From contig NZ_JAMTCT010000011.1 of assembly GCF_024171995.1 (NCBI RefSeq), positions 124,001 through 188,000 of the forward strand: DNA of 64,000 bases. Reading direction: 5' to 3'. A program made the translations under genes and the position numbers. Of the stretch, positions 47,641-57,290 are shown in pieces; the first letter of the stretch is position 1; the number at the start of each line of letters is the position of its first letter. This DNA comes from Promicromonospora umidemergens. Its GTDB lineage: Bacteria > Actinomycetota > Actinomycetes > Actinomycetales > Cellulomonadaceae. A model generated the notes under the pieces. That model had not been told where the DNA came from. It saw nothing but the letters and a program-made list of their open reading frames with translations, and made no database searches.

Positions 47641-48627
47641 GTGACCAACCTTGTCCCTGACGACGCGACGCGCCCCGGGCCGGTTCGCCGCCACCCCTCC
47701 ACGTCCTCCAGGACGCCCTGGTCCGCCGCACCGGGCAACGCGGTGCGCGGCGGACTGGTCGGCGCCGCCGAGTCGGTTCCCGGCATCTCGGGCGGCACCA
47801 TCGCCCTCGTCGTCGGCCTGTACGACGGCCTGCTCGGCGCGGCCAGCCAGCTCGTGCACGCCCTCCGCGAGCTCGTCCAGGGCCTCGTCGGGCGCCGCGG
47901 CCTCCGGCAGGCCTCCGCGGCGCTGCGCGAGATCGACTGGCCGTTCCTCGTTCCGGTGCTCGCCGGCATGGTCGTGATCCTGCTCGTCTCGCTGAACACG
48001 ATCGCGCCTCTGCTCGAGTCGAACCCCGTGCCGATGCGCGCACTGTTCTTCGGCATGATCGCCGTGTCGATCAGCGTCCCGCTGCGGATGATGCCGCACC
48101 GGTTCCGGCCGCTCGACGTCGGGCTGCTGGTGGCCGGGGCCATCGCCGCCTTCTTCCTGACGGGGCTGCCCGCCGCAGAGCTCAGCGACCCGCCCCTGTG
48201 GCTCGTGTTCGTCGGAGCGGCGATCGCCATCAACGCGCTCGTGCTGCCCGGCATCTCCGGCTCGTTCGTCCTGCTCGCCATGGGCCTGTACGTCCCGGTC
48301 CAGGCGGCCCTGCACGACCGCGACCTCGCGTTCATCGGCACCTTCATGCTCGGTGCGGCGGTCGGGCTCGGATCGTTCGTCAAGTTCCTGCACTGGCTGC
48401 TGGAGCACCGCCGTCAAGGCACGATGGCGCTGCTCGCCGGCCTCATGCTCGGCTCGCTGCGCGCGCTGTGGCCCTGGCAGGACGAGGCAGGCGACCTGCT
48501 GGCTCCCCCCGGAGACTTCATCGTCCCGGTGCTGCTCGCCCTGGTGGGTGCGGCGGTCGTCGCCGTGGCGATCTGGTGGGAGTCGCGCCGGACGCAGGGC
48601 TCGGCCGCTCCCGTCGCGGCAGGATGA
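47641..48627 (+). CDS. DUF368 family membrane protein (PopT-type polyprenyl-phosphate transporter)
   Basis: About 328 aa, eight or more helices. Two family repeats are visible: AAESVPGISGGTIALVVGLY and ALVLPGISGSFVLLAMGLYV. DUF368 (PopT) proteins recycle undecaprenyl phosphate across the membrane for wall synthesis, according to recent work; that role here is by family. The start is GTG 47641, 6 nt after TAGGCT (leaderless). Its stop overlaps the methyltransferase start by ATGA. Confidence 0.9.
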   Translation: MTNLVPDDATRPGPVRRHPSTSSRTPWSAAPGNAVRGGLVGAAESVPGISGGTIALVVGLYDGLLGAASQLVHALRELVQGLVGRRGLRQASAALREIDWPFLVPVLAGMVVILLVSLNTIAPLLESNPVPMRALFFGMIAVSISVPLRMMPHRFRPLDVGLLVAGAIAAFFLTGLPAAELSDPPLWLVFVGAAIAINALVLPGISGSFVLLAMGLYVPVQAALHDRDLAFIGTFMLGAAVGLGSFVKFLHWLLEHRRQGTMALLAGLMLGSLRALWPWQDEAGDLLAPPGDFIVPVLLALVGAAVVAVAIWWESRRTQGSAAPVAAG

Positions 48628-49256: not shown

Positions 49257-49349
49257 CCGGGCGAAAGTAGTGGCGCTCGTGACTCCACATCTCGCGGGTG
49301 AGCGGCGTCTTAAGGGGCGCAAGCACATCCCACGCACCTGGAGGTCCAC
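49257..49349 (+). promoter_or_regulatory. Leader of the amidoligase/ECF operon
   Basis: 93 bp between the methyltransferase stop and the first gene of the operon. A TGGAGG ribosome site ends it. An autoregulated ECF promoter is expected here, but I could not recognise a trusted -35/-10 pair. Confidence 0.35.
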
Positions 49350-49904
49350 GTGACCAGCACGACCCGCACCCTCCGCTCCAAGACCTTCCGCATCACCGCG
49401 ATCGGCGTCGCGGCCACCGGCCTGTGCGTCGCAGGCGCAGGCCTGGCCGCCGCGGCCAACCCGACCTCGAGCTTCGGTCAGGCGGTCGGCACCACGGTGA
49501 ACGCCGTCGGCGTCGACTGGTCCGACATGCCCGCCGGGTACACCCAGGCGCAGTACGAGGCGTTCTGGGGCGCCGAGTACAGCGGTGAGGACCTCGTCGA
49601 GCTGCAGGAGATCTGGTCGCTCGAGGAGACCGAGACCAAGTCCCGCGCCGGACAGATGATCCTGGACGGCGAGGAGCTCCCGTTCGCGCCCGGTACGCAC
49701 ACCACACCCGAGCTGCCCGCGAACGAGTCCGAGGCGATCCTGGCGTTCCTCGACGCCGGCTACTCGGGCGGGGACGTCGAGGAGCTGAGCGCCCTGTGGA
49801 ACACCGAGTACGTGGAGACCAAGGCCCGCGCCGGTCAGATGGTGCTCGACGGCGAGGAGCTGCCCCTCGACCCCGCCGACGTGGCCACCACGTCCGGTAG
49901 CTGA
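49350..49904 (+). CDS. Secreted repeat protein of the amidoligase/ECF operon
   Basis: About 184 aa, function unknown. A signal peptide (ITAIGVAATGLCVAGAGLAA) is followed by a 140-aa outer domain with two related halves, each ending in RAGQMILDGEELP or RAGQMVLDGEELP. The first half has GYTQAQYEAFWGAEYSGED, the second GYSGGDVEELSALWNTEYVE. The same domain reappears in the protein encoded by 51607-52323, at high identity. The start GTG follows TGGAGG. It is the first gene of a four-gene operon; the amidoligase gene follows 3 nt later. Confidence 0.88.
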   Translation: MTSTTRTLRSKTFRITAIGVAATGLCVAGAGLAAAANPTSSFGQAVGTTVNAVGVDWSDMPAGYTQAQYEAFWGAEYSGEDLVELQEIWSLEETETKSRAGQMILDGEELPFAPGTHTTPELPANESEAILAFLDAGYSGGDVEELSALWNTEYVETKARAGQMVLDGEELPLDPADVATTSGS

Positions 49905-49907
49905 CCT

Positions 49908-51014
49908 GTGCTCCCGGCACCGCTGACGACTCGCCAGGAGACGACCATCGACACCCTCACGCTGCGCACCGGCTTCGAGATCGAGCTGCTCGCGCCCGCC
50001 GGCTCCGACCGGCAGGTGCTCGCGGACGCTCTTGCCGCCCGCCGCGCCGGCCGGGTGTGCCGGTCGTTCCACACCGACAGCGAGCCGTCAGCGGTGCCGG
50101 GCGTCGGGGTGTTCCGGCACCTGTCCCCCGCGTTCGACGTGGTGGACGGTGCCGGCGCCCCGGTGGCGCGGCTCGTGGACGACATCACCATCGTGTCCGA
50201 CCTGGCCGGCACGACAACCCGGCCCGGGCACCGCGGGTGGTACCGGGTGCTGTGCGACGAGCCCCGTCTGCTGCGCCTGATCGAGCGGTGCTCGGACCCT
50301 GTCGCCGCCCTGCCCGACGTCCTGGCTCCGGTCGCCGAGCTGTTCGGCACCCAGGTCGAGCCGAGAGGCGGGGCGGCGAGGGTGAACGACGCCTCTGGCG
50401 CCACCATCGCGGTCGCGATGCCGCTGCCGGCAGGGCGCGAGCGGCCCTGCGAGGTGGTCACCCCGCCGATCACCGAGGACCACGGCACGGTGCTCGACGA
50501 GCTGCTCACCCCCGCGCGGGACCTCGGCTTCACCGTGCCCGCAGAGGCCGCCGTCCACTTGCACCTGGACGGCGCGCCCTTCCGGCGGCCCGCGGCGTTC
50601 GCCAACCTGGTCCGGCTGTTCGGGCACTGGCGCGAACCGCTGTGGGCGGCGCTGGGCACCAACGAGGCCTGCCGCCGTCTGGCACCGCTGCCCACCGAGC
50701 TGCTCCGGCTCGTGGAGCGCGGTGACCAGTCGTGGGGCGAGCTGCGCGCGGCCGCGCGCGGGATCGGCCTGACGAAGTACGCCGACGTGAACCTCACCCA
50801 GCTCGTCGCCCCGCACCCCGTCCGCGACACCGTCGAGGTGCGCATCCTGCCCGGTGCGCTGGAGGCCTCGGACATCCTGCGCCGGGCCGCGCTCGTCGAG
50901 CGCCTGGTGCTGAGATGCCTCGACGACGCCCCGGTCCCGCGGCCCGACGGCGGCGCGGCGCACGACCCGACCGGGGCACTGCTGGCCCTGGCGACGACGG
51001 GAGCCGGTCGATGA
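49908..51014 (+). CDS. Amidoligase family protein (COOH-NH2 ligase)
   Basis: About 368 aa. Matches the amidoligase pattern: GFEIELLAP near the N-terminus, the central VHLHLDGAPF, and a late YADVNLTQLV followed by TVEVRILPGALEASDIL, which carries the conserved Asn and Glu-Arg of the family. Amidoligases form amide bonds between carboxylates and amines using ATP and are proposed to modify peptides or proteins. The GTG start follows the preceding stop by 3 nt; the stop overlaps the sigma-factor start. The substrate may be the acidic operon partner proteins (inference). Confidence 0.8.
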   Translation: MLPAPLTTRQETTIDTLTLRTGFEIELLAPAGSDRQVLADALAARRAGRVCRSFHTDSEPSAVPGVGVFRHLSPAFDVVDGAGAPVARLVDDITIVSDLAGTTTRPGHRGWYRVLCDEPRLLRLIERCSDPVAALPDVLAPVAELFGTQVEPRGGAARVNDASGATIAVAMPLPAGRERPCEVVTPPITEDHGTVLDELLTPARDLGFTVPAEAAVHLHLDGAPFRRPAAFANLVRLFGHWREPLWAALGTNEACRRLAPLPTELLRLVERGDQSWGELRAAARGIGLTKYADVNLTQLVAPHPVRDTVEVRILPGALEASDILRRAALVERLVLRCLDDAPVPRPDGGAAHDPTGALLALATTGAGR

Positions 51015-51610
51015 CCGTCTGGCTACCCGCCACCAGCCCGAACAGCACGCCCGTCCCGCGCGTGGTGGAGCCGCGAGTGCCCACGCACGACGCCGGCCAC
51101 GCCGGCCCGGCCCGGACCCTGGACGAGCTGGTGCGGACGCACCTGCCTGGCCTGATCCGGTATGCGACGGTGCTGGTCGGTGACCAGCACACCGCCGCGG
51201 ACCTGGTGCAGGAGGTACTGCTGCGCGCTCACCAGCGGTGGCACCGGATCGCCCTGACGGAGCGGCCCGACCTGTACCTCCGGCGCATGATCACCAACGA
51301 GCACCTCTCGTGGCGCCGCCGTTGGCACGTGCGGATGATCCAGCCCACCGCCGACGACACGCTGGTCAGGCGCGGTGGCACCGCGGGGGACCACGCGGAG
51401 AACCTCGCACAGGAGGACGACATGTGGCGCCGCCTCGAACAGCTTCCGGCGCGGCAGCGCACGGTGCTCGTGCTCCGGTACTACGAGGGGCTGGTGGACA
51501 CGGAGATCGCGACAGTTCTCGGCACCTCGCCCGCCACCGTTCGTTCCCACGCCTCGCGCGCTCTGGCCACTCTCCGGCGCACCGCCCCGATCTTCATGGA
51601 GACGAGATGA
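51011..51610 (+). CDS. ECF RNA polymerase sigma factor (SigE family)
   Basis: About 199 aa. Region 2 is RYATVLVGDQHTAADLVQEV with the -10-binding segment, and region 4 is RQRTVLVLRYYEGLVDTEI then VLGTSPATVRSHASRAL. The 35-residue N-terminal extension is low-complexity. The start ATG overlaps the amidoligase stop, and its stop overlaps the next gene, so sigma factor and membrane partner are co-translated. The partner is the likely anti-sigma factor. It probably drives its own operon. Confidence 0.94.
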   Translation: MTVWLPATSPNSTPVPRVVEPRVPTHDAGHAGPARTLDELVRTHLPGLIRYATVLVGDQHTAADLVQEVLLRAHQRWHRIALTERPDLYLRRMITNEHLSWRRRWHVRMIQPTADDTLVRRGGTAGDHAENLAQEDDMWRRLEQLPARQRTVLVLRYYEGLVDTEIATVLGTSPATVRSHASRALATLRRTAPIFMETR

Positions 51611-52323
51611 ACCACGACCGTCCCACGGGCACTCCGGTGCCCGGAACCCGGCCGGAGGGCCGCACCCGGCACGATGCCCAGCACGACGCCCTCGCCGAGC
51701 AGATCGCGGCGGCCCTGCGCTCGCGCGAGCCTGCCGCCGCCGACACCGCTGCGCTGACCCAGCGGATCGCTGCCCGTGTCGGAGCAGCGGCCGACGGCCG
51801 GAGCGGCGCCGCGACCCCGTTCGTCCGGCGCGCGGGCTTTATCGCGGTCACCGGTGTGGTCGCATCGGCACTGGGCGTGGTCGGAGCGGCCACCGCCGCG
51901 GCGACCGACCCCTATACGGAGTTCGCCGCCACGGTCGACGGCATCGCACACGCCGTGGGTGTCGACTGGTCCTCGATGCCCGACGGCTACACGCGCGAGC
52001 AGTACGAGGCGTTCTGGGGCGCCGAGTACAGCTACGAGGACCAGGTGAAGCTCGAGGAGATCTGGGCGCTCGACTCCACCGAGACCAAGGCACGGGCAGG
52101 CCAGATGATCCTGGACGGCAAGGAGCTCCCGTTCGAGCCGGGCAGATACACCACGCCAGAGCCGTCGGTGGCCGACACTGCGGCAGCTCATGCGTTCATC
52201 GATGCCGGCTACGACGCCGACGACGCCGAGGCGCTGAGCGACCTGTGGGAGACCGACTTCGTCGAGGCCAAGGTGCGGGCCGGCCGGATGCTGCTCGACG
52301 GCGAGACGCCGCCGCTGCCCTGA
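51607..52323 (+). CDS. Membrane-anchored repeat protein, candidate anti-sigma factor
   Basis: About 238 aa. A cytoplasmic N-terminus of about 75 residues (DALAEQIAAALRSREPAAAD) is followed by one helix (FIAVTGVVASALGVVGAA) and an outer domain closely similar to the secreted protein at 49350 (GYTREQYEAFWGAEYSYED, RAGQMILDGKELPFEPG, RAGRMLLDGE). Position after the ECF gene, ATGA overlap and topology are those of an anti-sigma factor, but no standard zinc anti-sigma motif is visible. It may sense or compete with the secreted homologue. Confidence 0.82.
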   Translation: MNHDRPTGTPVPGTRPEGRTRHDAQHDALAEQIAAALRSREPAAADTAALTQRIAARVGAAADGRSGAATPFVRRAGFIAVTGVVASALGVVGAATAAATDPYTEFAATVDGIAHAVGVDWSSMPDGYTREQYEAFWGAEYSYEDQVKLEEIWALDSTETKARAGQMILDGKELPFEPGRYTTPEPSVADTAAAHAFIDAGYDADDAEALSDLWETDFVEAKVRAGRMLLDGETPPLP

Positions 52324-52335
52324 TCGAGCGTGATT

Positions 52336-52360
52336 CGGCCGTTCGACTGTCGAACGGCCG
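52336..52360. terminator. Hairpin terminator of the amidoligase/ECF operon
   Basis: Perfect 11-bp stem, CGGCCGTTCGA (52336-52346) with TCGAACGGCCG (52350-52360), 3-nt loop. It stands 12 nt after the last stop codon of the operon. Confidence 0.7.
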
Positions 52361-53575: not shown

Positions 53576-54046
53576 TCAGCCGCCTACACCGGCAGGGGCC
53601 GGAGCGCCGTCGGACGGCGGCGGGCCGGACGGGCCGTCGTCGTCCAGCTCGAAGCCCGGGTCCTCGTCCACGATGTCGAGGAGGTCGCCGATCCGGGTCA
53701 CCTCGAGCAGAAAGCGCACGGTCGGAGGTGCCCGCAGCACGCGCACGCGGTGCGGGCTGCGGCTCGCGAGGCGCGCGAGGAACGCGACGCCCGACGAGTC
53801 CATGAAGGTCACATGATGCGCGTCGATCTCGACCGGGAGACGTGACTCCTCGGCCGCGGCCGTGGCCTCGTGCAGATCTCCGCCGATATCGGCGTCGATC
53901 TCTCCGGAGAGCACGATCCGGGCGCGGGAGCGGCCCACGATGACGTGGATGCTCGCGGGATCGCCGATCTCGGGGGTCTGATGGCCGGGGTCCTGGGGGC
54001 TCCCGCCCTGCGGACCGCGCGGGGGGTCGTAAGTTCCGTCCTGCAC
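53576..54046 (-). CDS. STAS-domain anti-sigma factor antagonist (first)
   Basis: About 156 aa. The STAS core has ARIVLSGEIDADIGGD and the phosphorylatable serine in VTFMDSSGVAFLARL. The flanks are Pro/Gly-rich tails, longer than in minimal SpoIIAA-type proteins. The GTG start follows AAGGAGA. It diverges from the SpoIIE/HATPase protein and probably is its dephosphorylation target, releasing a sigma factor from a partner kinase (partner switching, by family). Confidence 0.93.
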   Translation of the reverse strand: MQDGTYDPPRGPQGGSPQDPGHQTPEIGDPASIHVIVGRSRARIVLSGEIDADIGGDLHEATAAAEESRLPVEIDAHHVTFMDSSGVAFLARLASRSPHRVRVLRAPPTVRFLLEVTRIGDLLDIVDEDPGFELDDDGPSGPPPSDGAPAPAGVGG

Positions 54047-54190
54047 GGTTCTCCTTCCGGGAGCAGTGGTCGTAGCGCTGTGTCGGTCCGATGATAGAGG
54101 TTGAGGTTCAGATCTCGGACCGTCCCAATCTACGGTTGAATGTCCTGCTGGAGAAGCACCTCGAGCAACAGATACCGTTGGGAGGGCATT

Positions 54191-56665
54191 TTGACCGATT
54201 CATCCGGTCTGACACCGTCCTCTCCGCCGCCGCGGCACCCCGGCCTTTCCGTATTCGGCCTTGGTCCGACTCAGGACGGGACATCGAACGGTAGAACGAG
54301 CAGAACATCGAACGGTATGTCGAACGGGAACGGCTTCGGCGCCGGCAGGCCTGCTCGTGCCGACGCGGTGAGCGTGCCCCCGAGCATCCCGCCGAGCAAC
54401 GCGCCGCGGGGCGCTCACCGGGCAGCCGGCGGCGCGGAACCGCGGAGGCACGCACCGAGCACCGGCATCCCGCGGACCCTGCCGCCGTCGGTCGGCGATG
54501 TGGTCCTGCGCGCCGCGGTGAGCGTGGGCATCCCCGTCTTCCTGACCGGGCCCACCGAGGACGGCATGCCGATGCTGTGGGCCAACAGCGCGTTCGAGCA
54601 CTACGCGGGCGTGCGGTTCACCGACTTCGCCGGGTACACGGTGCGTCGGCTCGGCGAGATGCTCGTGGAGCCGCAGGACCTCGAGCGGATGACCGAGCTG
54701 GTCAACGCGGGCCAGGAGGTGCACGCGACCGTGCGCTCCCACCTGCGTGGTGGCACGCACGGCTGGGCCCAGCTCACGCTCACCCCTGTCCGTGCGGGCC
54801 GCAGCGAACGCATCACCCACTGGGTCGGCTTCAGCGTGGACGTCTCCGACCACATGGAGCGGCACGCTGCCCAGCTCGCGAGCCTCGAGGTCGAGCGGCA
54901 GCAGCGCGAGGACCTCGACCTCATCGCGCAGACCACCGAGATCCTGACCGACCTCGAGTACCCGTACGCCCTGCGCGACATCGCGGAGCTGCTCCAGTCG
55001 ATGGTGCGCTGGGCCGGTTTCTACGTGAACGACGACGGTCTCAGGCACGCCGCAGGCATCGACGTCGCGGCACCGCCGAGCGGCCGTGGACGCAGGCACG
55101 CGCGGTACATCGAGGGCGACAACATCGCGGACAAGAGCCAGCGCCGTCGGCCGCAGACCGATGCGCTCGGTGACTCCGTCACCACCGGGCCCATGCCCAT
55201 CCTCGAGGTGGTGGACTCGGTGCAGGACGTGCTCGACGGCGCGCTCGACGGCCCCGTCGCGCTGCACCTCGACATCCCGCACGCGCCGCACTCGGCGTCG
55301 GGCTGGCTGCAGCGCGACCTCACGCTGCGCCTCGCCGACGAGCTGGGCAAGGCGCCCGAGTCGGTCGTGGTGCACCCCGTAGCCGGACGGCGGGACGTGC
55401 TCGGGCTGGTCGTGATCGTCCCGGACGAGGACGAGCCGGGCGACTACGTCGATGCCGACGAGTCGGACACGCTGCGCACGGTGGTGGAGGTGGTGGCCCG
55501 TCGCGCGGGCAGCGCCATCGACAACGCGCGCATGTACGCGCGGGAGCACAAGCTCGCCGAGACCTTGCAGCGCGCCATGCTCCCCGAGCAGGCCGACGTC
55601 GCGGGGCTCGACGTATGGACCTACTACGCCCCGAACGCCGAGCACGCCCAGGTGGGCGGTGACTGGTACGACGTGCTGCAGATCTCGCCGGAGCTCGTCG
55701 GCCTGGTCATCGGCGACGTCGTCGGGCACGACGTCGAGGCCGCCGCGACCATGGGGCAGCTGCGGTCCGTGGTGCGCTCGTACGCCTTCGAGCTGTCGAC
55801 GCCGAGCCGCGTGCTCGAACGCGTGGACCAGCTCGTCGCCGGCATGGGCATCCCGCGCTCGGCAAGCATGGTGTACGCCTCCCTGAAGCGCGAGGAGGAG
55901 CCGGACGTCTGGACCATCGGCTACTCGCGTGCGGGCCATCTGCCGCCGCTCCTGCTGCGTGCCGGCGAGGTGATCAAGCTGGACGAGGGCGGCGGTGCGC
56001 TCGTCGGCTTCGGGTCACGGGAGCGGACCACCGGCGAGGCGCGCCTCCAGCCGGGTGACACGCTCCTGTTCTACACGGACGGGCTGATCGAGCGGCGCGA
56101 CCGGTCCCTGCGGCTGGGCCTCGATGCGCTGCTGGAGACGGCGTCGGCCATCACGGCCCGTGACGCAGCGGGTGTGGGCGAGGAGCTGCTGTCCCGCCTG
56201 GCGGACGCACCGGAGGACGACGTGGCGATAGTCGTGGTCCGCATCCCCGACCCGACCGGCGACGCCGGGGAGACCGCTCTGTCGCCGCGGTGGCGGCGCT
56301 GGATGCTGCCGAGCGAGCCGTCGTCGATCGGCAGGGCCCGGCACTCGGTGCTGCGCACCTGTCAGGCGTGGGGGATCGAGGAGTCCGCGCAGGCGGAGCT
56401 CGTGGTGTCGGAGCTGGTCGCGAACGGTGTGCTGCACGGTTGGGGGCACATCGCGCTGCGCCTGTACGACACCGGCGACGGGCTGCGGATCGAGGTCGAG
56501 GACAACAACCCCGCGCCGCCGGTCGCCACCGACGGGCACCCGAACCGCCTGGGTGGGTTCGGCATGCAGATCGTGGACCGGCTGGCCGAGTGGGGCTGGC
56601 GCCCGTCGGGCAGCGGAAAGCTGGTCTGGGCAAAGCTCCGTCGCCAGCCCACCCCACCCAAGTAG
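54191..56665 (+). CDS. PAS-GAF-SpoIIE phosphatase-HATPase switch protein (RsbU/RsbW-like)
   Basis: About 824 aa. A low-complexity N-terminus (to about residue 95) is followed by a PAS domain (VFLTGPTEDGMPMLWANSAF), a GAF region (about 240-440), a PP2C/SpoIIE phosphatase (LQRAMLPEQADVAGLDVWTY; VGGDWYDVL; GDVVGHDVEAAA) and a C-terminal HATPase (SELVANGVLHGWGHI). The start is TTG 54191 because GGGAGGG stands 4 nt upstream. Having phosphatase and kinase-like domains in one chain lets it both phosphorylate and dephosphorylate STAS partners, two of which flank it. Confidence 0.93.
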   Translation: MTDSSGLTPSSPPPRHPGLSVFGLGPTQDGTSNGRTSRTSNGMSNGNGFGAGRPARADAVSVPPSIPPSNAPRGAHRAAGGAEPRRHAPSTGIPRTLPPSVGDVVLRAAVSVGIPVFLTGPTEDGMPMLWANSAFEHYAGVRFTDFAGYTVRRLGEMLVEPQDLERMTELVNAGQEVHATVRSHLRGGTHGWAQLTLTPVRAGRSERITHWVGFSVDVSDHMERHAAQLASLEVERQQREDLDLIAQTTEILTDLEYPYALRDIAELLQSMVRWAGFYVNDDGLRHAAGIDVAAPPSGRGRRHARYIEGDNIADKSQRRRPQTDALGDSVTTGPMPILEVVDSVQDVLDGALDGPVALHLDIPHAPHSASGWLQRDLTLRLADELGKAPESVVVHPVAGRRDVLGLVVIVPDEDEPGDYVDADESDTLRTVVEVVARRAGSAIDNARMYAREHKLAETLQRAMLPEQADVAGLDVWTYYAPNAEHAQVGGDWYDVLQISPELVGLVIGDVVGHDVEAAATMGQLRSVVRSYAFELSTPSRVLERVDQLVAGMGIPRSASMVYASLKREEEPDVWTIGYSRAGHLPPLLLRAGEVIKLDEGGGALVGFGSRERTTGEARLQPGDTLLFYTDGLIERRDRSLRLGLDALLETASAITARDAAGVGEELLSRLADAPEDDVAIVVVRIPDPTGDAGETALSPRWRRWMLPSEPSSIGRARHSVLRTCQAWGIEESAQAELVVSELVANGVLHGWGHIALRLYDTGDGLRIEVEDNNPAPPVATDGHPNRLGGFGMQIVDRLAEWGWRPSGSGKLVWAKLRRQPTPPK

Positions 56666-56667
56666 CT

Positions 56668-56731
56668 GGTTGTGGGCGCGATCATTTGTGGCTAGAACGG
56701 ACAGGTAGCCGCAAAGATCGCGCGCACAACC
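56668..56731. terminator. Hairpin between convergent switch-protein and STAS genes
   Basis: Arms 56668-56693 and 56707-56731 pair at about 23 positions with one bulge, around a 13-nt loop. It lies just after the phosphatase gene and before the end of the convergent second STAS gene. Confidence 0.65.
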
Positions 56732-56754
56732 GAGCAGGGGGTTTGGATAACGTT

Positions 56755-57159
56755 TTACGCAGTGGACGCGTCGCGATGGGATAACGGGGACACGTCATCC
56801 TCCCGCGAGGCCAGGACCGCGAATCCCGAGTCAGGGGCGGAGGGCTCGCACGAGTGCTCGTCGTCGATGCGGAAGAGCTCCATCGCTCCGCACACCTCGA
56901 GCACGAACAGATCGCGCTCGTCAGCCCCGCGGATCACGGTGGCGCCGCCGCGCTTGCGGCCGGCGTCGGCCAGCGAGATGAGGAACGCGGCCCCGGTGGA
57001 GTCCATGAACGTGACCCGGCACATGTCGATGACGAGCAGCTGCCTGCGCAGGCCGACGACGCGCGCCGCGATCTCCGGGAACTGGTCTCGTTCGGCGAGG
57101 TCGAGGTCGCCGGCGATCACGAGCGTCGTCGTCGTGGGAGACGTCGCGATCTCGATCAT
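56755..57159 (-). CDS. STAS-domain anti-sigma factor antagonist (second)
   Basis: About 134 aa. The STAS core shows LVIAGDLDLAERDQFPEIAA and the phospho-acceptor serine in VTFMDSTGAAFLISLAD. The ATG 57159 is chosen as TACGCT lies 6 nt upstream and longer starts lack support, so the mRNA may be leaderless. It is convergent with the SpoIIE/HATPase gene and probably a second client of it. It shares the DS(S/T)G motif with the first STAS protein but is otherwise diverged. Confidence 0.92.
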   Translation of the reverse strand: MIEIATSPTTTTLVIAGDLDLAERDQFPEIAARVVGLRRQLLVIDMCRVTFMDSTGAAFLISLADAGRKRGGATVIRGADERDLFVLEVCGAMELFRIDDEHSCEPSAPDSGFAVLASREDDVSPLSHRDASTA

Positions 57160-57290
57160 GTGTCGAGCGTAACGACTGTTGTCGGATCGCACCGGATGAA
57201 AGGCAAAATTCACCATCCCGGCCGGTGTCCGGGGCAATGCCGTGCGGTCCCCTTTGTCCATCCCTGCCGTCGAGGTGTGAGAATTTGCGC

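Follow-up and report, generated by a model that had tools for sequence, protein, structure and literature searches.

Introduction

Amidoligase_2 proteins (PF12224) were reportedly recognised in 2009 as glutamine synthetase (GS)-like COOH-NH2 ligases. The gene contexts of PF12224 are glutamine amidotransferase (GAT)-like peptidases or AIG2 cyclotransferases. In Pup–PafA pupylation a GS-fold ligase acts on a protein substrate and forms isopeptide bonds on lysine, while graspetides carry side-chain amides made by an ATP-grasp ligase whose gene adjoins that of a small precursor peptide. Here we describe a four-gene operon in a stretch of 64,000 nucleotides from the 6.6-Mb genome of Promicromonospora umidemergens (contig NZ_JAMTCT010000011.1, positions 124,001–188,000; the whole stretch is referred to as the window) which joins a PF12224 amidoligase to two repeat proteins, A and D, and to an extracytoplasmic function (ECF) sigma factor. 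We tentatively interpret it, at a little under an even chance, as an autoregulated ECF sigma/anti-sigma cassette making a dedicated amidoligase and its client repeat protein.

The operon resembles the described PF12224 systems in its profile match, GS-like fold and conserved acidic, His, Arg and Lys residues, but differs in its constant partner, which is an exported repeat protein usually accompanied by an ECF sigma/anti-sigma pair, and neither a GAT-type peptidase nor an AIG2 cyclotransferase was found among the ten flanking proteins of the window that were scanned. As in pupylation, judged by description, a GS-fold ligase would be dedicated to a protein substrate and would act on lysine, but no Pup or proteasome gene was seen in the operon, and the proposed site is a single lysine within helical repeats that are exported. 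With the graspetides it shares a ligase gene adjoining the gene for the candidate substrate and, as proposed here, side-chain amides, although the ligase has a GS and not an ATP-grasp fold and the substrate would be a folded repeat protein, not a short precursor. ECF sigma/membrane anti-sigma switches such as SigV–RsiV likewise have a sigma factor followed by a protein with one transmembrane (TM) segment, a cytosolic N-terminus and an outer domain, and a promoter for their own cassette; D differs in that its outer domain is the repeat of a co-expressed secreted protein and likely enzyme client, and in having no annotated anti-sigma domain. A literature search, with many subscription papers outside its reach, found no description of a cassette of amidoligase, ECF sigma factor and anti-sigma factor, nor of a substrate for actinobacterial PF12224 enzymes of this kind.

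The window operon and its amidoligase

The four genes are present with the spacing claimed in the first-pass annotation, which had been made from the window sequence alone (a 3-nt gap followed by two ATGA overlaps). The features of the operon are as follows, in window coordinates:

49283–49312, forward strand: ECF-type promoter CTCCACA-N16-CGTCTTA upstream of gene A, a regular-expression match conserved across loci
49350–49904, forward strand: gene A, GTG start, 184 aa, secreted protein with two 45-aa repeats; GGAGG at 49340–49344
49551–49685, forward strand: A repeat 1, with the codon for lysine 30 of the repeat (K30) at 49638–49640
49737–49868, forward strand: A repeat 2, K30 codon at 49821–49823
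49908–51014, forward strand: amidoligase gene, GTG start, 368 aa, PF12224, after a 3-nt gap
51011–51610, forward strand: ECF sigma factor gene, SigE-family TIGR02983, ATGA overlap with the amidoligase gene
51607–52323, forward strand: gene D, candidate anti-sigma factor, ATGA overlap with the sigma gene
51832–51891, forward strand: TM segment of D (approximately residues 76–95), hydropathy about 2.0 across 19 residues
52000–52134, forward strand: D repeat 1, K30 being K161, codon 52087–52089
52183–52317, forward strand: D repeat 2, K30 being K222, codon 52270–52272
52336–52360, forward strand: hairpin 3' of the operon, 11-bp stem (52336–52346/52350–52360) and 3-nt loop

The window enzyme matches PF12224 well above the curated cut-off (E 6.2e-12, 46.3 bits against 22), and 32 relatives are 53–89% identical to it, with 69 columns invariant across all 33 enzymes, including H55, D57, E59, E178, H217, K290, E310 and R312. 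The predicted structure (pLDDT 89.9) has as its top four Foldseek matches GS 9n4x (twice), 1tt4 and YbdK 1r8g at E 1.0e-3 to 2.0e-3 and probabilities of 0.97–1.00, although the TM-scores are just 0.27–0.33 and no match has E < 0.001, which puts them at the edge of significance; we assign the enzyme to the GS-like fold class. The amidoligase is probably cytoplasmic, since no 19-residue stretch exceeds a hydropathy of 1.6.

The start at 49908 has an ATG, GTG or TTG at the matching place, judged by eye, in ten of eleven loci (the window, L031, L033, L043, L054, L074, L075, L076, L078 and L080; L079 has CCG), and TAG codons found in the enzyme matches of four genomes coincide with the match end or fall no more than eight codons from it, which we take as the gene end. 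We note that in seven loci (L058, L061, L065, L066, L068, L069 and L071) the repeat gene just before the amidoligase ends within the sequence CTGA, whose CTG is in frame with the enzyme; upstream of the conserved N-terminus there is no ATG, GTG or TTG in L058, and the nearest is 33–98 codons off in L061, L066 and L068. As the usual start codons are absent or far upstream and the overlap is present, the enzyme of these loci may start at the rare CTG by coupling.

An origin in phages, plasmids or defence systems was considered and rejected. None of 36 pattern matches in viral contigs, obtained with two peptide patterns only, was confirmed as an amidoligase relative, no tblastn match was obtained among 72,556 plasmid records, and A, the enzyme and D had no convincing match in PADLOC or PHROGs.

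A and D share an unannotated repeat

A and D each consist of a membrane or signal segment and two repeats of about 45 residues, with a single hydrophobic segment placed near the N-terminus of A and at approximately residues 76–95 of D. The two proteins are homologous, membrane segment included, and A is approximately D minus its cytosolic part. Across 145 distinct repeat copies W22 and P44 are conserved in 100%, L18 and G34 in 98%, G40 in 97%, K30 in 96% and D14 in 94%. AlphaFold models each repeat as three helices at pLDDT 95–98, with residues 67–99 of D, including the TM region, below 50. Searches of the repeat against Pfam, NCBIfam, PHROGs, PADLOC and the PDB returned no convincing family (best values of 0.011 in PHROGs, 0.014 in Pfam, 0.14 for PDB sequences and 0.43 for PDB folds), window A and D gave nothing above threshold in Pfam or NCBIfam, and a fold search with D produced 0 matches at E < 0.001. 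The outer domain of A and D is an unannotated 45-residue three-helix repeat.

This domain was first described as passing almost unchanged from A to D, which is true of repeat 1 in the window (80% identity) and not of repeat 2 (59%). Across 17 loci the A–D identity of repeat 1 was 0.50–0.71 in 15 and 0.80–0.84 in two (the window and L031); for the same loci the best A–A match was at least 0.82 in 13 of the 17, and the best D–D match ranged over 0.67–1.00. The near-identity seen in the window is local. Co-adaptation of A and D within a locus was weak, with their own identity above the mean to other loci in 12/17 loci for repeat 1 and 8/17 for repeat 2, mostly by little. Two Cellulomonas genomes encode, directly after D, a third repeat protein, whose N-terminus holds a hydrophobic segment (L034:1616–2206 and L040:9137–9718).

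The repeat protein and amidoligase form the constant unit

We compared 45 distinct loci, made up of the window, 14 named loci, 30 stretches less one duplicate, and the locus of genome G580; as these were gathered through matches to D, the repeat or the enzyme, counts of gene order refer to a biased sample. The order A–amidoligase–sigma–D is found in 21 including the window, among others in Promicromonospora, Cellulomonas and Sanguibacter, with both the enzyme and D changing frame in L057 and D cut by a contig end in L079. The remainder are permuted or partial, with six sigma–D–A–amidoligase, three sigma–D–amidoligase, six A–amidoligase and three sigma–D loci, plus six cut by contig ends, a class that holds both Actinotalea loci. 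All nine sigma-first loci with an enzyme belong to family f14, D is the sole repeat protein in three loci, and in genome G073 the cassette is split, with A–amidoligase and sigma–D on separate contigs.

Co-occurrence of repeat and enzyme is strict. Among 297 genomes of the order the repeat profile was found in 21 and the amidoligase profile in 20, all within the 21 (hypergeometric value 3e-30, kinship ignored), and the sole genome with repeats only, G185, is 76% complete and carries them on a 3.7-kb contig. In a sample of 396 genomes of the phylum, repeats occurred in two genomes and a strong amidoligase match in the same two, with a third enzyme match, in G617, being weak (5.6e-4 over 45 positions). 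Only G580 had the repeat among 30 genomes of its order, and the enzyme is present in eight of 13 genomes of the window's genus. Wherever a genome has both (21/21), a repeat ends 14–153 nt before the amidoligase match, which makes a repeat protein followed by the amidoligase the constant unit; sigma–D is its probable regulator, common but non-universal. As order and co-occurrence are kept across families, the operon is more than a chance arrangement. The first-pass annotation had staked its proposal on the genes being linked in relatives and on the amidoligase call surviving a profile search; the enzyme did score above the PF12224 cut-off, and the profile search with the shared domain and neighbourhood survey recovered the linkage across actinobacterial families.

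Two loci stand apart. L056 (G092:C6) is an operon of the Cellulomonas type, found on a contig of 13 kb; the genome is otherwise f14 and has its own sigma–D pair (L082), and L056 may be contamination or a recent transfer. In L158 (G300:C183:20000–39500) the start of A is fused to the end of D, the amidoligase and sigma genes are gone and the promoter motif is intact, and this chimera looks like the product of a deletion by recombination between the repeats of A and D.

K30 is retained where the enzyme is intact

K30 is lysine in 129/129 repeat copies from loci with an intact amidoligase, in 4/7 copies from sigma–D loci without the enzyme (0/2 in L073, 1/2 in L081 and 3/3 in L082), and, by alignment, in 3/5 copies from L057, where the enzyme is decayed. 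In L057 the enzyme is encoded in two different frames and has VTGSEPS in place of the usual HTDSEPS motif; as the D gene of this locus changes frame too, the frame changes may be sequencing errors. These counts leave out L077, which is from the same genome as L031, and treat ten copies in contig-end loci as a separate class (K30 in 9/10). Of nine conserved positions K30 alone distinguishes the groups (P = 1.8e-6, against 0.085 for P44, which comes next), and W22, unlike K30, is kept in loci without the enzyme. The four copies in G580, which was added later and was not used in forming the idea, all have K30 (4/4).

Taken with the co-occurrence described above, this pattern lends support to the earlier guess that the repeat protein is amide-modified, and points to K30, in both A and D, as the probable site at which the amidoligase acts. 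D is suggested as a client as well because every D repeat of loci with an intact enzyme has K30. A lactam within the repeat between K30 and D14 is disfavoured, since D14 is kept in 11/12 copies without an intact linked enzyme, among which K30 is lost in five, and D14 would fit a helix-capping position.

Sigma factor, candidate anti-sigma factor and promoters

The identification of the third gene product as an ECF sigma factor was confirmed by TIGR02983 (145.2 bits against a cut-off of 141.55) and by matches to Sigma70_r2 and Sigma70_r4_2. D adjoins the sigma gene and has a predicted topology of an N-terminal part with two helices, one TM segment and two outer repeats. This agrees with the earlier placing of D where an anti-sigma factor would be expected, and D is likely to be a membrane anti-sigma factor that carries the outer domain of A.

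Upstream sequence is present for 21 A-first loci, and in 19 of these a promoter of the type CT[CG]CACA-N16(17)-CGT lies before A, the other two (L033 and L079) having variants; the regular expression used, CT[CG]CACA-N14..18-CGT[CT].., gave five further matches elsewhere in the stretches. In 13 genomes of the genus the strict motif occurs at nine sites in eight genomes, with eight before A. The single site outside the operon, compared with 11 for a control pattern, led us to reject a wide sigma regulon.

In 20 stretches with other layouts GCAACC-N14..18-CGT[CG] gave 25 matches, ten before sigma, seven before A and eight elsewhere (control pattern, seven in 263 kb), with none in L067, L070, L071, L083 or L128 and one, elsewhere only, in L073. 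In all six sigma–D–A–amidoligase loci GGCAAC[CG]-N16-CGTC ends 9 nt 5' of the A start codon, and a site of the same type also precedes sigma (6/6). That two transcription units within a locus share a promoter type, and that this type changes by clade, supports, short of proof, the sigma factor driving A and the enzyme; the A-first operon, with its conserved ECF-type promoter presumably used by its own sigma factor, would then be autoregulated. Four f15 A genes from A–amidoligase loci (L059, L060, L063 and L072) have CGCAACC/GGCAACC-N16-CGTG upstream and no sigma match in the stretch, which suggests control by an ECF sigma factor encoded elsewhere.

We also note that in six f14 loci (L058, L061, L062, L064, L066 and L068) only 8 nt separate the CGTCT box of the putative ECF promoter from the start codon of A, a spacing that leaves no room for a Shine-Dalgarno sequence, and A is therefore probably translated from a leaderless mRNA there.

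Operon end and flanking genes

The hairpin 3' of the operon had been called clean, and as a hairpin it is real (z -1.64 in a 66-nt stretch, with an equally good fold in 12/200 shuffles). No U run directly follows it, and it is at most a candidate terminator.

The flanking genes were rejected as partners, as trmH and fba lie on both sides only in the window, L031, L074, L076 and L078; trmH alone is found in L079, at a contig end, and neither gene in L075, L080 or any searched stretch from outside Promicromonospora. Two genes upstream, at 47641–48627, is a VCA0040-like gene (undecaprenyl phosphate translocase family), whose linkage to the operon was seen only in Promicromonospora loci. At 53576–57261, 3' of the aldolase gene, a STAS-domain gene, a gene for a PAS-SpoIIE-HATPase protein and a second STAS-like gene, identified by eye, appear to form a partner-switch module.

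Proposed mechanism and alternative explanations

In the mechanism we favour, the sigma factor would be held by D until a signal arrives and would then act on its own promoter to transcribe the cassette. In the cytoplasm the amidoligase, using ATP, would form an amide bond on K30 of the A repeats before export, and would modify the D repeats likewise where D is made beside the enzyme. A would then be secreted and D placed in the membrane with its repeats outside, where D may report the state of the client repeats or of a partner bound to them, and so set the amount of A and enzyme. Here we infer the enzyme–client relation, K30 as the target, the binding of sigma by D and the signal. The further proposal that the circuit senses its own product, the anti-sigma factor carrying substrate repeats so that K30 modification (or binding outside) sets sigma activity and hence the amount of enzyme and substrate, with the repeat a new client domain of a GS-fold protein-lysine ligase, is possible though doubtful.

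A number of observations weigh against an enzyme–client cassette of this kind. K30 has been lost from few loci (L073, L081, L057 and perhaps L070), the count was made post hoc and the copies are related; counting L057 as linked raises the P value to 7e-4. L082 keeps K30 in 3/3 copies without a linked enzyme, as does the G300 chimera in 2/2, where the loss of amidoligase and sigma is probably recent. The genomes with free-standing sigma–D pairs (G073, G106 and G092) hold an amidoligase elsewhere, and as their D could still meet the enzyme, this makes us slightly less confident of the client reading and slightly more inclined to ligand binding. A repeated search found no sigma match in the six A–amidoligase stretches, of which those of L059 and L063 begin less than 0.8 kb upstream of A. 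Export of the modified chain is an assumption, and K30 may be a ligand-contacting or structural residue.

The last point leads to the main rival, that a small amide made by the amidoligase, or a cell-envelope precursor altered by it, is bound by the repeats through K30, with A carrying or buffering this product and D sensing it. PF12224 is named just a 'putative amidoligase', GS and YbdK folds act on small molecules, and a small helical module in which a Trp is invariant and a Lys almost so suits ligand binding too. Such a scheme also explains exported repeats and a cytoplasmic enzyme without modification before export, and the VCA0040-like gene would fit it, but that linkage is confined to Promicromonospora loci and the loss of K30 but not W22 without the enzyme fits a modification target better than a binding pocket. 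We consider ligand binding rather unlikely.

Both remaining alternatives concern D, and we judge each improbable, the second slightly more so. According to one, close to the earlier suggestion that A mimics or competes with D, secreted A is a decoy that would compete for a ligand or protease of the D ectodomain, with the effect of damping or triggering the switch. Homology that extends to the membrane segment, with A resembling D minus its cytosolic part, and the similarity of repeat 1 in the window could be read this way, but A and D behave as separate lineages in most of the 17 loci and the near-identity of the window is local, leaving the suggestion without specific support. The three loci in which D is the only repeat protein and the six A–amidoligase loci without a sigma match indicate that competition is not the common core, which is instead the amidoligase and repeat protein; a decoy would leave the regular presence of the amidoligase unexplained and accounts for the least of the pattern. 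According to the other, D is a second exported client and no anti-sigma factor, with sigma controlled otherwise. No anti-sigma domain was matched by Pfam in nine D proteins (the window and eight others) or by NCBIfam in window D, which favours this and counts against our reading of D as the regulator. However, D directly follows sigma, the two genes overlapping at ATGA in the window, free-standing sigma–D pairs exist (L073, L081 and L082), and in the other clade D still has, by eye, an N-terminus that is short and basic and a single hydrophobic segment.

Returning to the enzyme–client cassette, our findings suggest that soil actinobacteria have a dedicated system for protein modification, monitored by a sensor made from the system's own substrate. 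The cassette offers a candidate protein client, a candidate residue and a minimal unit of two genes, for the repeat protein and the enzyme, which could be expressed in a laboratory host, and the family includes natural loci in which the enzyme is absent or decayed. If the interpretation is correct, the GS-fold ligases would gain a system for protein-lysine amidation, and the ECF switches one that controls an enzyme through a sensor made from that enzyme's substrate.

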